Origin: Flavobacteriales bacterium
GTDB lineage: Bacteria; Bacteroidota; Bacteroidia; Flavobacteriales; Flavobacteriaceae
Assembly: GCA_026996605.1 (NCBI GenBank)
Contig: JALWLE010000063.1
Coordinates: forward strand, 62,001 to 126,000
DNA: 64,000 nt
Reading direction: 5' to 3'
Shown: one piece after another, positions 51,562 through 56,915 of the stretch
How the letters are laid out: every line of letters starts with the position of its first letter
Position numbering within the stretch: the first letter of the stretch is position 1
Made by a program: the position numbers and the translations under genes
The notes under the pieces: generated by a model
The model's database searches: none
What the model saw: the letters and a program-made list of their open reading frames with translations, nothing else
What the model was told of the DNA's origin: nothing

Positions 51562-52083
51562 ATGTCTATTTTTAAAACATATTACCCTACATTGAAATTT
51601 ATCTTCAAGTTTGTTTTAACCTATGTTATTTTAGTGGTAATCTATAATTATTACTTATCATTTTTTCAAAATCAAACGGATTATTTGACACTTTGGGTCG
51701 GTAAAATTGTAAGTGGTATTTACAAACTTTTCGGCATGAATGTGCAAAGCATTCCGATTAAAACAGAACCCGGACTTAAATTGATAATTCAAGGGCAATA
51801 TGTTGCACGCATTGTAGAAGGTTGTACCGCCATGAGTGTTATTATTATGTTTACGGCGTTTATAATCAGTTTCGGACAGCATATCAAAAAGACACTCATA
51901 TTTGCTCTTGCCGGTAGTGTAGCGATATTTGTATTTAATATATTACGAATTGTACTGTTAGGCTATTTATTATATGCTTTTCCGCAATATCAAGATGTAG
52001 CACATCGAATTATATTCCCGGCATTGATTTACGGATTTGTCGTCTTTTTGTGGATACTCTTTATCAAAAAGTACAATGATTAA
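51562..52083 (+). CDS. xrtF: Exosortase family protein XrtF
   Basis: 173 residues, the short exosortase form. Several spans surround the catalytic triad of the family: Cys88 in RIVEGCTAMSV, Arg129 in FNILRIVLLGYL and His148 in QDVAHRI. Exosortases are membrane transpeptidase-like enzymes that recognise short C-terminal sorting tripartite signals on surface proteins. XrtF is the flavobacterial subtype. Its stop overlaps the start of the partner gene by 8 bp. No candidate substrate with a matching tail was recognised in this window. Confidence 0.92.
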   Translation: MSIFKTYYPTLKFIFKFVLTYVILVVIYNYYLSFFQNQTDYLTLWVGKIVSGIYKLFGMNVQSIPIKTEPGLKLIIQGQYVARIVEGCTAMSVIIMFTAFIISFGQHIKKTLIFALAGSVAIFVFNILRIVLLGYLLYAFPQYQDVAHRIIFPALIYGFVVFLWILFIKKYND

Positions 52084-52510
52084 AACTTATCAAAAACATA
52101 TCATTGCTATTATTTTGATTTTTCTTTTGATAGCTGTCAGGTTCTTTGAAAAATCATATTTTGATGATGGCTTAATCGGTTTTTTTCAATATGATTATTT
52201 AACCGAACCTCTTCCAAAACTTCCAATTTTTAAAATCATATTGATTGACAGTATCCGTTTTTGGCTCAATACAGCTATTAGTATCTTAATATTAAGATTG
52301 TATTTTAACCAATCAGGCTTATTAAAATTTCTCTTGCTTGTTTTTACAATCAGTTATTTTGTAAGCATTTTATTCTTATATCTATCAATTGAAAATTACC
52401 AAGCGGGGCATTACTTGTCCTTGTTTTACAGCCGGAGATTTCTTATACAGCCCTTATTATTTTTACTATTGGCGCCTGCTTTGTGGTATCAAAAACATTT
52501 AAAAAATTAA
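52076..52510 (+). CDS. Exosortase F system-associated membrane protein
   Basis: 144 residues from ATG 52076, which overlaps the xrtF stop by 8 bp; the longer frame start is within xrtF. At least four hydrophobic spans (IIAIILIFLLIAVRFF, FLLLVFTISYFVSILFLYLS, LIQPLLFLLLAPALWYQKHL), with the family-typical ENYQAGHYLSLFYSRRFLIQ. Proteins of this family always sit beside xrtF and are assumed to work in the same complex, with no known reaction. Confidence 0.88.
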   Translation: MIKTYQKHIIAIILIFLLIAVRFFEKSYFDDGLIGFFQYDYLTEPLPKLPIFKIILIDSIRFWLNTAISILILRLYFNQSGLLKFLLLVFTISYFVSILFLYLSIENYQAGHYLSLFYSRRFLIQPLLFLLLAPALWYQKHLKN

Positions 52511-53007: not shown

Positions 53008-53952
53008 TCAATTTTTAAAAAATTTCACAGTAACTGTTTGTTGATCGTTAAGTATTACTTGCATCAAATAAATACCGTTTTTAAGTGTGCTGACATTAAT
53101 CTCAGTTTGGTTTTGATTAATTTCTTTGAGTAAACGCCCGTGTAAATCATAAATTTTGATAGATGTAATTTGCTGATTTCTTAAGGGATTTATATGTAAA
53201 ACTTGATGAACGGGATTAGGATAAAATTTAAAGCCCAATGTTTTTAATTCGGTAATACCGGTTACACCTATTAAATTATTAAAATCTACTGTATTGCCAT
53301 GAAACGAATCTAAATCGACATTCCCTGTAATACCATTAACACTGCCATACCAACTATATTGTTTAAAGACCCAAGTATTCCAGTTACCTAAATTTGTTGG
53401 GGGTGTAGAAGGCAAGGTGCCGGGTTTGGCAATCCAAAGTCCGTATGAATTGAGTGAGTTGTTTAAATAAGCGGCATAATGTGAGTTTAGATATAATATG
53501 GGTTGCACACCGGTTTGTGATTCAACCCTGTTAAGCCAAGTTTGCACCCATGCGGTCAGTTGTGATGAGGTAAAAAGTTGATCTAAATGTGTATTCGCAT
53601 TCGGGTCTTCCAAATCTAAAACCGGCGGTAAAAAACCGTTACCGATATAGCTTGATGCGGTGTTGATAAAATTATCAGCATCTTGAGTCGCCGTATTATT
53701 GTCGGGACGGGCAAAATGGTAAGCCCCCATGACGATACCGGCATTGGTGCCGCCGGTCATATAGGTAGTAAAATTTGGGTCATGATAAGTCATTCCTTCG
53801 GTAGCTTTACAATAAGCAAAAACTTTACCGTCATTGGCAACTAATTGCCAATTGATAGTACCTTGATGGTGTGATACATCAATACCGAGAATTGTTTGTG
53901 CCGAAATAAATTGTACTGAAAGTAACCAAAAAAACGTATAAATTTTTTTCAT
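53008..53952 (-). CDS. GH25-family lysozyme with T9SS sorting domain
   Basis: 314 residues. Signal peptide to FISAQ. The GH25 barrel opens with TILGIDVSHHQGTINWQLVA, has YCKATEGMTYHDPNF and GAYHFARP, and the catalytic acidic cluster in PPVLDLEDP. The barrel closes near residue 225 (NVDLDSFHGNTVDF). The C-terminal 80 residues are a T9SS type A domain (GFKFYPNPVHQVLHINPL, STLKNGIYLMQV). It hydrolyses peptidoglycan muramic-acid links; T9SS export points to use outside the cell, against other bacteria or for cell-wall turnover (inference). Confidence 0.93.
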   Translation of the reverse strand: MKKIYTFFWLLSVQFISAQTILGIDVSHHQGTINWQLVANDGKVFAYCKATEGMTYHDPNFTTYMTGGTNAGIVMGAYHFARPDNNTATQDADNFINTASSYIGNGFLPPVLDLEDPNANTHLDQLFTSSQLTAWVQTWLNRVESQTGVQPILYLNSHYAAYLNNSLNSYGLWIAKPGTLPSTPPTNLGNWNTWVFKQYSWYGSVNGITGNVDLDSFHGNTVDFNNLIGVTGITELKTLGFKFYPNPVHQVLHINPLRNQQITSIKIYDLHGRLLKEINQNQTEINVSTLKNGIYLMQVILNDQQTVTVKFFKN

Positions 53953-54668: not shown

Positions 54669-56915
54669 TTATGGATATTTGGATTTATAAAAATCATTAA
54701 CCACAAAATCGGGAGTATTTTTATTAATATCTACAACGATAAAGTGTTTGTTTTGCCATAAATTTAATACATCTTCCAAGATGCGTTTTCGCACTACGAA
54801 GATCATATCCAAGCCGGATACATTCATGGCTTTTTCAATGGCTTTAAACCAACCTTGTCCTTTAATTTCCAAATAGCCGACTTCATCTATGACCAAGATA
54901 TCCAATTGTTCCAAGTCATTTAAAATAGCATTATTGCCAAATTCAAATCCGATTTTAGAAAAATAAAATCTACCGGTTTTAAGATCATCATCATGCGTTT
55001 TTTCACGACTACACAAGTATTGTTTCTCGCCTGTCATAATATTTTCAATACTAAAGCCAAAACGTTCCCCCATATAATCCGTGCCATGCGCAATGATACC
55101 ACCTATTTTTAATTGTGGATTCGTTTGTTTCAAATCGTTAATAATTTGTTTTAAAAAAGTTGTTTTACCACTTCGCGTTTCGCCCGAAATAACAAAAATT
55201 TTATTACGTTGGAATATTTGTCGTTTAAATTCTTGCAACAAAGTATCTGATAGCCCGATAGATTTTTGTAGCACTTTTAAGGGTTTAAACAACATTTTAC
55301 GGTCGGCAGAAATATGTTTTAAAATATAAGGTACAGCCGAAGTCGCCAAGCCCAAAGTAGCATATAACTGTGAGTAACCTTTTTTGTAAAGCAAAGCTTT
55401 AACCAAGGGATTTTTGAGTTCAACACTGATGGCGGTAAAGCTCGAAACGACCAAAATAGCCCGTAAAATCATCTTGATGCCTACCAGTAGTCCTTCCGTT
55501 TTATCTTGCCACAGCCATACTGCCATTAAAACAATAACGACTAATTGTAACCAAAACAAAGGCTTTGCCAGTCGTCGTAGAGATTTGCCATAACGCTTAA
55601 AAATAAAGCCCAAATATAAGGCAATCGGAATGATGATATACGACAACGGATACCATTCCAGACCGATAAGAAATAACACTAATACTATTATATGTATAAA
55701 TAAATATTTGGTTTGATACTTAAATTTGTCAATGTCAAATAAATCATTTTTAAATTGCCATGGTTCGGTTGTAAGTGGTTGATTATAATTTGTTTGTTGG
55801 ATTTTTTTACCAACCATTTTACCTACGAAAGCTGCTAACAATCCCAAAAAAATATAAGCGATACCTATAAGAATAAACAGCTGATTAACAGGTAGTTTTA
55901 GGTGAGTGGTATGCAAAAATACATAGTATAAATTTTCTAAAATCTTAACAATATCAAATCCGTAAATCAAAATAATACTAACGACTTTGTGGATGATGGC
56001 ACTATACATAGCTAAGATACCGGCAGTGGCAAAACTCAAAAAATTACGTCCGAAAAGATTAATTACCAACTGAAACAATGCCGCTTCCACCAATATCCCG
56101 ATTAACGGACCTAAAATAACCGAAGTAGGCATGAGCGAACGCATCAATGCGGCAATGATACCGGCTTTGATAAACAAGTTTTTATCTTGCCATTTATATG
56201 AAAAGGCTATCAGTAAAATGATAGATGAAAAAGTCAAGAATGTACCTGCAAAAGGTAGGCGTAAACTGTGAAAAAATCCCCCGAAAATAATTTCAAAACT
56301 TGCCCAAATACTGCCTATGACAGCGGCTTTTAGCCATATATCCTGCTGATTGTTATCCATTTTTTTTTGTAGTTTTTGAAGCGATTCGGGCGTGTTGATA
56401 TTGACAAATTGTGATGAAAAATCACCGGCATCAATGGTATGATTTAGGGTTTTATTTAATAAATTTCGTAATTTGTAATCGCCGGTTTCAATCTGTTGTT
56501 TTAAAACCGGCAGTAAATCTTTGTGGTATAGTCCGGTAAGCATTTGCAAACGGTCATTTGCTCGAAAAATATTAATTTTTTTACTGAAATCCGCCTGTTC
56601 TAAAAGATATGATATCACTTCGGTTGTCAGCATAGGCATATCCACCGGAATAACCAAAGCTATTTCGTATTTGATGTAAGGCAAGCAAGTATAAAGTCCA
56701 CTGATGGGTCCGGTATTATGAATAGAATCCGGTATTGTTTTGTAGTTTATAGCCTTGATTTTATCGTTTGTGCTTACAATAATATCATCGGTAAAATTTT
56801 GTAGTAAACTAACGGCTCTGTTCAAAAAACTTTGGTTTTGAAACACTAATGAAGACTTATCTGTTCCCATCCTCAAACTTTTTCCCCCTGCTATAACGAT
56901 TCCGGATACCTTCAT
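54669..56915 (-). CDS. Fusion: MobA-like nucleotidyltransferase, ECF-transporter-like S and T membrane parts, THEP1-type NTPase
   Basis: 748 residues from ATG 56915. Residues 1-188: MobA-like NTP transferase (IVIAGGKSLRMGTDKSSL, PVDMPMLT), the enzyme type that joins GTP to molybdopterin. About 195-370: spans like an ECF S component (SVILGPLIGILVEAALFQLV, YSAIIHKVVSIILIYG). About 400-560: spans with a CbiQ/EcfT-like cytoplasmic stretch (VELKNPLVKALLYKKGYSQL, SAVPYI). 571-748: THEP1/NTPase_1-type domain with P-loop GETRSGKTTF (578-587) and Walker B DILVIDEVGYLE. The ECF reading of the middle is inference; the two ends are confident. The ATG is preferred because the TTG 18 bp upstream overlaps a -7-like TATTTTTG (minus strand, 56931-56938). 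No other Moco genes are near. Confidence 0.78.
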   Translation of the reverse strand: MKVSGIVIAGGKSLRMGTDKSSLVFQNQSFLNRAVSLLQNFTDDIIVSTNDKIKAINYKTIPDSIHNTGPISGLYTCLPYIKYEIALVIPVDMPMLTTEVISYLLEQADFSKKINIFRANDRLQMLTGLYHKDLLPVLKQQIETGDYKLRNLLNKTLNHTIDAGDFSSQFVNINTPESLQKLQKKMDNNQQDIWLKAAVIGSIWASFEIIFGGFFHSLRLPFAGTFLTFSSIILLIAFSYKWQDKNLFIKAGIIAALMRSLMPTSVILGPLIGILVEAALFQLVINLFGRNFLSFATAGILAMYSAIIHKVVSIILIYGFDIVKILENLYYVFLHTTHLKLPVNQLFILIGIAYIFLGLLAAFVGKMVGKKIQQTNYNQPLTTEPWQFKNDLFDIDKFKYQTKYLFIHIIVLVLFLIGLEWYPLSYIIIPIALYLGFIFKRYGKSLRRLAKPLFWLQLVVIVLMAVWLWQDKTEGLLVGIKMILRAILVVSSFTAISVELKNPLVKALLYKKGYSQLYATLGLATSAVPYILKHISADRKMLFKPLKVLQKSIGLSDTLLQEFKRQIFQRNKIFVISGETRSGKTTFLKQIINDLKQTNPQLKIGGIIAHGTDYMGERFGFSIENIMTGEKQYLCSREKTHDDDLKTGRFYFSKIGFEFGNNAILNDLEQLDILVIDEVGYLEIKGQGWFKAIEKAMNVSGLDMIFVVRKRILEDVLNLWQNKHFIVVDINKNTPDFVVNDFYKSKYP

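Follow-up and report, generated by a model that had tools for sequence, protein, structure and literature searches.

The locus and its reading frame

The window, that is, the whole stretch of 64,000 nucleotides that was analysed, carries at 54669-56915 one 748-aa open frame on the minus strand. Read from its N-terminus, the frame holds a MobA-like guanylyltransferase region (residues 1-186), an S-like and a T-like membrane half, and a THEP1-type NTPase domain (Table 1). A plus-strand reading of the same stretch is ruled out, there being 53 stops in that frame. Downstream of S-T-THEP1 lies a GH25 lysozyme-type hydrolase that carries a T9SS sorting tail (53008-53952), in a synteny that is kept in congeners. 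An exosortase-family protein (PF09721, E 1.5e-7) is followed by a small membrane protein (51562-52510); the two resemble the XrtF pair, which is known from Flavobacteria. A plasmid search with the window neighbourhood gave no match.

Table 1. Features of the MobA/S-T-THEP1 frame (window positions)
Feature	Position	Strand	Basis
S-T-THEP1 protein, 563 aa, conserved unit	54672..56360	-	Intact single frame in congeners; at least 500 aa in 65/80 fetched loci
THEP1-type NTPase domain	54672..55205	-	PF03266 in 64/64 relatives; Foldseek top match 2i3b
Walker B Asp-Glu (LVIDEVG)	54882..54887	-	D492 and E493 invariant in alignment A4; DExG in 60/64
Walker A GETRSGKT	55161..55184	-	Pattern in 64/64 relatives
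T-like membrane half, without EcfT Ala-Arg-Gly signatures	55209..55739	-	Alignment A6 against separate T genes, A7
S-like membrane half, W-x3-E-x3-G-x3-H-x4-P-x2-G core	55773..56360	-	Profile A5; helix-1 small-x3-small pattern
A9 run that puts MobA and S-T-THEP1 in one frame	56360..56368	-	Junction alignment with 13 relatives
MobA-like guanylyltransferase domain	56361..56915	-	PF12804 1.2e-28; NCBIfam MobA NF001457 1.5e-37; PDB 2e8b/1e5k MobA

The PF12804 match to the MobA-like region spans residues 5-156 and scores 100.7 bits against a cut-off of 27, with the GGxSxRMG and PVDMP motifs present; against the NCBIfam MobA equivalog the score lies under the cut-off (129 vs 164). The region meets S-T-THEP1 in a run of nine A, the last of which opens the ATG of S-T-THEP1. 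In the nearest relative the junction reads C-AAGAAAGAAA-TGG, a run of 10 bases, and in the window C-A9-TGG; the run is thus 1 base shorter here, which places MobA in frame with S-T-THEP1. The frame is open and undisrupted, and a separate MobA would stop few codons further on, as might be expected if the fusion were a functional four-part enzyme-transporter, neither mutation nor assembly error. Such a product is nevertheless very improbable, as the join hangs on a single base within the A9 run, the public genome scan shows no MobA-fused S-T-THEP1 in its 80 loci, and in 11 of 11 comparable congeners the two are separate genes in different frames with a 4-8 nt overlap. The fusion is private to this assembly, and its source is either a real mutation or deletion or a homopolymer error. 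As an architecture it was rejected, since all comparable relatives have MobA as a gene of its own with a translational overlap, and MobA is often absent.

The initial annotation had described a single four-part polypeptide. Its frame, coordinates and four parts are real, among them the MobA-type guanylyltransferase and a THEP1-type NTPase with intact Walker A and B motifs as the sole NTPase in cis; the frame lies on the minus strand, and the MobA join is not conserved. It had also named an assembly join of separate genes as the finding that would speak against it, and this is largely what is seen for the MobA part and clearly not for S-T-THEP1.

S-T-THEP1 as a conserved single-chain unit

A scan of 84,980 species genomes returned 115 relatives, 80 of which were kept. 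S-T-THEP1 occurs in Flavobacteriaceae (including Lutibacter sp. SZUA-1414), Saprospiraceae, Bacteroidales and Lentimicrobiaceae, and also in Chlorobiota, Ignavibacteriae, KSB1 and Elusimicrobia MAGs. A single chain so conserved and so widespread goes beyond chance. In one locus (L136, 2064-4169) the S-T-THEP1 frame has an extra C-terminal stretch of ~130 aa resembling a Crp-type regulator.

In the window protein PF03266 covers residues 574-734 with an E-value of 9.4e-23 (81.3 bits vs a gathering score of 23.9). Similarity to the Moco adaptor MobB is marginal, being seen in 25 of 64 members with E up to 0.1. The AlphaFold2 model of S-T-THEP1 (mean pLDDT 84.9, pTM 0.74) predicts all-helical membrane halves, with long helices in the S half, and an alpha/beta NTPase. 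Human NTPase/THEP1, 2i3b, is the sole significant Foldseek match of the whole model in the PDB (E 3.8e-6); searched by fold in PDB and viral libraries, the model was recognised in its NTPase only. A single-sequence fold of S and T (pLDDT 50) was unusable. We know of no role for THEP1 in energising transport.

Membrane halves and their kinship to ECF components

Pfam ECF families gave no match to the membrane part in the window protein or in 63 relatives, and the LSGG motif is present in 0 of 64 relatives. The likeness to ECF components is seen through relatives in which S and T are separate genes. Separate S-gene homologues match PF09605 over their full length (E 0.006) and PF09819 (E 0.59), both under the cut-offs; we take these two to be ECF S-type families. 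Separate T genes match TIGR02454 (CbiQ) at E 3e-5 to 2e-3, and hhalign relates separate T (A7) to CbiQ (A8) with a probability of 72% (E 3.3e-5) and fused T (A6) to separate T (A7) with one of 97% (E 3e-11). Fused T compared directly with CbiQ is not significant (3.6%). PDB sequences were also searched with profiles of S, of fused T and of separate T; no ECF match came up, and a control CbiQ profile recovered EcfT/CbiQ at 1e-21 to 1e-30. CbiQ itself has no match in the window genome.

Helix 1 of the S half has a small residue at position 12 in 86% of sequences and at positions 16 and 20 in 100%. The AXXXA motif of helix 1 sets transport S-components apart from their sensor and MreD relatives (PMC11109136), and since the small-x3-small residues are comparable to it they are counted for a transport role. 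In ECF transporters two Ala-Arg-Gly signatures of T dock the EcfA units (PMC3246461). The corresponding residues R169 and R207 of A8, invariant in CbiQ, have no counterpart among the conserved columns of A7, and no ABC ATPase lies between the cassette genes in L062, L063, L065-L067 or L072-L074. Because T is without these signatures and the cassettes are without ABC ATPases, S-T-THEP1 is not filed as an ECF transporter.

Assignment of the halves as S and T is indirect, by way of the separate-gene relatives and the all-helical model, and homology to ECF components is weak. The resemblance proposed from the sequence finds support that is weak yet consistent, through the relatives with separate genes, in the predicted helical halves and in the likeness of separate T to CbiQ, but not in the Pfam ECF families or in the direct comparison of fused T with CbiQ. 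As the best reading of these sequences, S-T-THEP1 would work in the manner of an ECF importer in which another motor has taken over.

Gene arrangements and neighbours

The three parts recur in other ARRANGEMENTS: each may have its own gene, S-T may be fused with THEP1 apart, or all three may share one chain, ordered S-T-THEP1 or THEP1-S-T. Cassettes with S, T, a TonB receptor and THEP1 as separate neighbouring genes are found in L062, L063, L072, L073 and L074, and those with S, T and receptor as separate genes in L065-L067. A fused S-T with a separate THEP1, often 3' of a carboxymuconolactone-decarboxylase-like gene, is found in L064, L067 and many THEP1 loci. The permuted THEP1-S-T fusion, one frame of ~470 aa, is that of L068 (6090-7511) and L069 (5959-7368). 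That S, T and THEP1 are shuffled among these arrangements argues for a joint function. The TonB receptor of the cassettes is BtuB-like; none adjoins S-T-THEP1 in the window.

Genes of molybdenum enzymes are recurrent neighbours. A Mo-oxidoreductase with FeS and TorD-like genes adjoins the cassettes of L062 and L063 (the latter with MobA), and a periplasmic nitrate reductase operon adjoins those of L065, L066, L067, L072 and L073. In L067 S-T plus THEP1 also lies 3' of an XDH-type operon, and fused forms are found beside XDH-type (L070) or Mo-oxidoreductase (L071) genes. THEP1 is among the separate cassette genes that adjoin molybdoenzyme operons in four loci. MobA lies immediately 5' of the S-T-THEP1 gene in 27 of 75 loci; outside the genus the count is 17 of 65. 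In 8 loci the place that MobA takes elsewhere is held by DUF364/DUF4213. For DUF364, a paper on its structure suggested that the protein acts on a derivative of pterin or flavin during metal uptake, and genome context there ties the family to Mo/W transport (PMC2954201).

A protein of ~105 aa of the carboxymuconolactone-decarboxylase family (PF02627) is found beside both S-T-THEP1 cassettes and Moco operons (L064, L168-L171, L173, L174 and several THEP1 loci).

Molybdoenzymes and Moco synthesis genes

MoaA, MoaC, MoaE and MoeA have no match in the window genome (97% complete) or in 11 of 12 congeners, with control genomes giving the expected matches. A molybdopterin oxidoreductase is present in 10 of 13 genus members, and the window genome has a PhsA-like thiosulfate reductase (E 5e-135) beside a NiFe hydrogenase; PhsA-type enzymes need MGD. 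Outside the genus all four synthesis genes are missing from nine genomes, among them G156 and G171. Two others (G428, G129) have MoeA and MobA only, and six (G113, G224, G152, G263, G064 and G140) have MoaA, MoaC and MoeA without MoaE. Complete MoaA+MoaE+MoeA sets are found in the carriers G001 and G094, so that S-T-THEP1 is not only for auxotrophs.

The sole Moco operon in the genus is in G001 (contig C16, L160, 7.3-13.2 kb) and comprises MoeA, a ModE-like regulator, a TauE/SafE-like permease, MoeB-like, MoaE, MoaC-MogA and MoaA; the genome keeps MobA and S-T-THEP1. Operons of MoaA, MoaC and MoeA, with MobA in some, are also seen in five of the six genomes lacking a PF02391 MoaE (L172 in G113, L168 in G224, L170 in G152, L171 in G263, L175 in G064); another protein may stand in for the molybdopterin synthase there, or there may be none. 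The MoaA-like protein of G113 and G064 is only 266 aa long.

Among genomes with a PF00384 match, MoaA+MoaE+MoeA is found in 2 of 25 carriers vs 14 of 15 non-carriers (Fisher 7e-8), 10 of the 25 carriers belonging to one genus and the match being weak (NuoG kind) in G156 and G171, the latter with an XDH-type enzyme instead. Two genomes (G008, G012) have the S-T-THEP1 gene and no PF00384 match. MoaE alone is an imperfect marker of Moco synthesis, since family f32 has MoaA, MoaC and MoeA without a PF02391 match, and MoaA, MoaC and MoeA were therefore added to the test. In a phylum sample MoaE is found in 1 of 30 positives vs 147 of 366 (p 1.5e-5) and strong MoaA matches in 5 of 30 vs 209 of 362 (p 1.3e-5), the 30 positives including some matched via THEP1 alone, most of these with S-T beside THEP1. 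PF01568 was left out of the phylum-wide counts because some matches looked like non-Mo relatives. The genomes throughout are incomplete MAGs, and the carriers are phylogenetically clustered.

A candidate importer of Moco and its alternatives

In many carriers molybdenum enzymes are present while all the Moco synthesis genes searched for are missing, and on this ground S-T-THEP1 is read as a putative inner-membrane importer of Moco (Mo-molybdopterin, maybe the dinucleotide) or molybdopterin, with a probability of about 0.6. The initial annotation had noted that no Moco genes lie nearby and left the substrate open. This is probably the wrong way round, the genome-wide absence of MoaA/C/E and MoeA together with a molybdoenzyme pointing to Moco or molybdopterin. 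Its suggestion that a cofactor-related ligand is imported and coupled to nucleotide chemistry finds support in the genomic pattern, from which we infer transport itself, along with the ligand, its direction, the energy coupling and the hand-over to MobA. The adjoining molybdoenzyme operons, the MobA and DUF364/DUF4213 genes 5' of S-T-THEP1 and the precedent of molybdopterin cross-feeding also speak for import. Against it count the weak homology of S and T to ECF components, the carriers with full synthesis sets or without MoaE alone, those lacking a PF00384 match, the want of an adjoining TonB receptor in the window, the incompleteness and clustering of the genomes, and the fact that THEP1 is not known to energise transport.

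Ligand would be captured in the periplasm by the S-like half, having been brought across the outer membrane by the BtuB-like TonB receptor in those relatives with one in the cassette. The T-like half would couple S to the THEP1 domain, which would take the place of the two EcfA ATPases, NTP binding and hydrolysis resetting S or releasing or accepting the ligand. With MoeA missing too, the imported ligand is probably already loaded with Mo. MobA would then add GMP to give MGD for enzymes of the DMSO-reductase family and so trap the cofactor inside. Given the marginal likeness of THEP1 to MobB, the domain might hold the cofactor and not just power its transport.

Other substrates have been considered. 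An importer of molybdate or tungstate, or of chelated Mo, feeding ordinary Moco synthesis would fit the adjoining Mo enzymes and the genome context of DUF364 (PMC2954201). Most tested carriers, however, are without MoaA, MoaC, MoaE and MoeA and could not convert free molybdate to cofactor, and the BtuB-related TonB receptor fits a large ligand better than an oxyanion; this reading is unlikely. Import of a pterin precursor (cPMP or metal-free molybdopterin), finished by whatever Moco enzymes remain, agrees with the graded loss described above, from genomes without MoaE to those with MoeA and MobA only. It is a little less unlikely than molybdate import, but the window genome and many others are also without MoeA, and the imported form would have to suit those carriers without MoeA-assisted Mo insertion.

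S-T-THEP1 might instead move nothing and be a nucleotide-dependent adaptor or sensor that is anchored in the membrane and serves Moco delivery, S and T being its scaffold. The S-component fold serves in receptors as well (PMC11109136), and an adaptor would suit the marginal MobB similarity of the NTPase. The cassettes nevertheless contain a T-like half and TonB receptors, the small residues of S helix 1 are conserved, and cells without Moco synthesis need an entry route for the cofactor, all of which makes a non-transporting role improbable, more so than either of the other substrates.

Import of Moco or molybdopterin remains our preferred reading. The fuller claim, of a previously undescribed system for finished Moco, spread over several phyla, with THEP1, a non-ABC NTPase, as the motor of an ECF-like S-T pair, is more tentative, and we would put it at slightly under even odds. 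As far as we know, the general view is that Moco is too labile to be passed between cells and that each bacterium using it makes its own de novo, and we know of no described bacterial importer. Among the 5.39 million open-access papers searched, neither THEP1 with ECF parts nor a bacterial Moco importer was found described. Solutions with Moco uptake were judged unrealistic in network modelling of E. coli (PMC3423039). The fitness of Ruegeria pomeroyi moaD and moaE mutants shifts in co-culture, which was read as molybdopterin cross-feeding (PMC10041152), and uptake has been speculated for some T11SS outer-membrane proteins (PMC12282271). If the importer reading is true, bacteria without Moco synthesis would run nitrate, thiosulfate and xanthine-type molybdoenzymes on their neighbours' cofactor, making Moco a shared resource like vitamin B12 and explaining bacteria that have molybdoenzymes but no synthesis genes. 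It would also hint at what the THEP1 family does and show that an ECF-like membrane pair is able to work with a non-ABC motor.

Comparison with known systems

The upstream domain or gene shares family and motifs with MobA guanylyltransferases, but here it occurs without MoaA/C/E and MoeA in the genome, and its frame overlaps that of a membrane NTPase. Distant P-loop kin of the NTPase domain are found in MobB, which belongs to the Moco pathway, and in DUF2478 P-loop proteins; the similarity is marginal only, and in the material examined ECF-like membrane parts are joined to neither. With THEP1/NTPase_1 (PF03266) the protein shares the NTPase domain in full, Walker A and B included, and, in human 2i3b, its closest structure. 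As solved, THEP1 is soluble and stands alone, whereas here the domain is fused to or lies beside an ECF-like membrane pair.

With ECF transporters S-T-THEP1 has in common the S-like and T-like membrane parts, the small-x3-small residues of S helix 1, an NTPase partner and a gene context of the micronutrient type. It differs in that the cassettes have THEP1 and no ABC ATPase, T is without the two EcfA-docking Ala-Arg-Gly signatures, and S and T are mostly fused, the fused protein having no Pfam ECF match. Compared with vitamin B12 uptake by BtuB with an ECF-type or BtuCD system, the context here is one of molybdoenzymes and the inner-membrane part is S-T-THEP1, but several cassettes have a BtuB-like TonB receptor, and the logic of salvaging a costly cofactor is the same.
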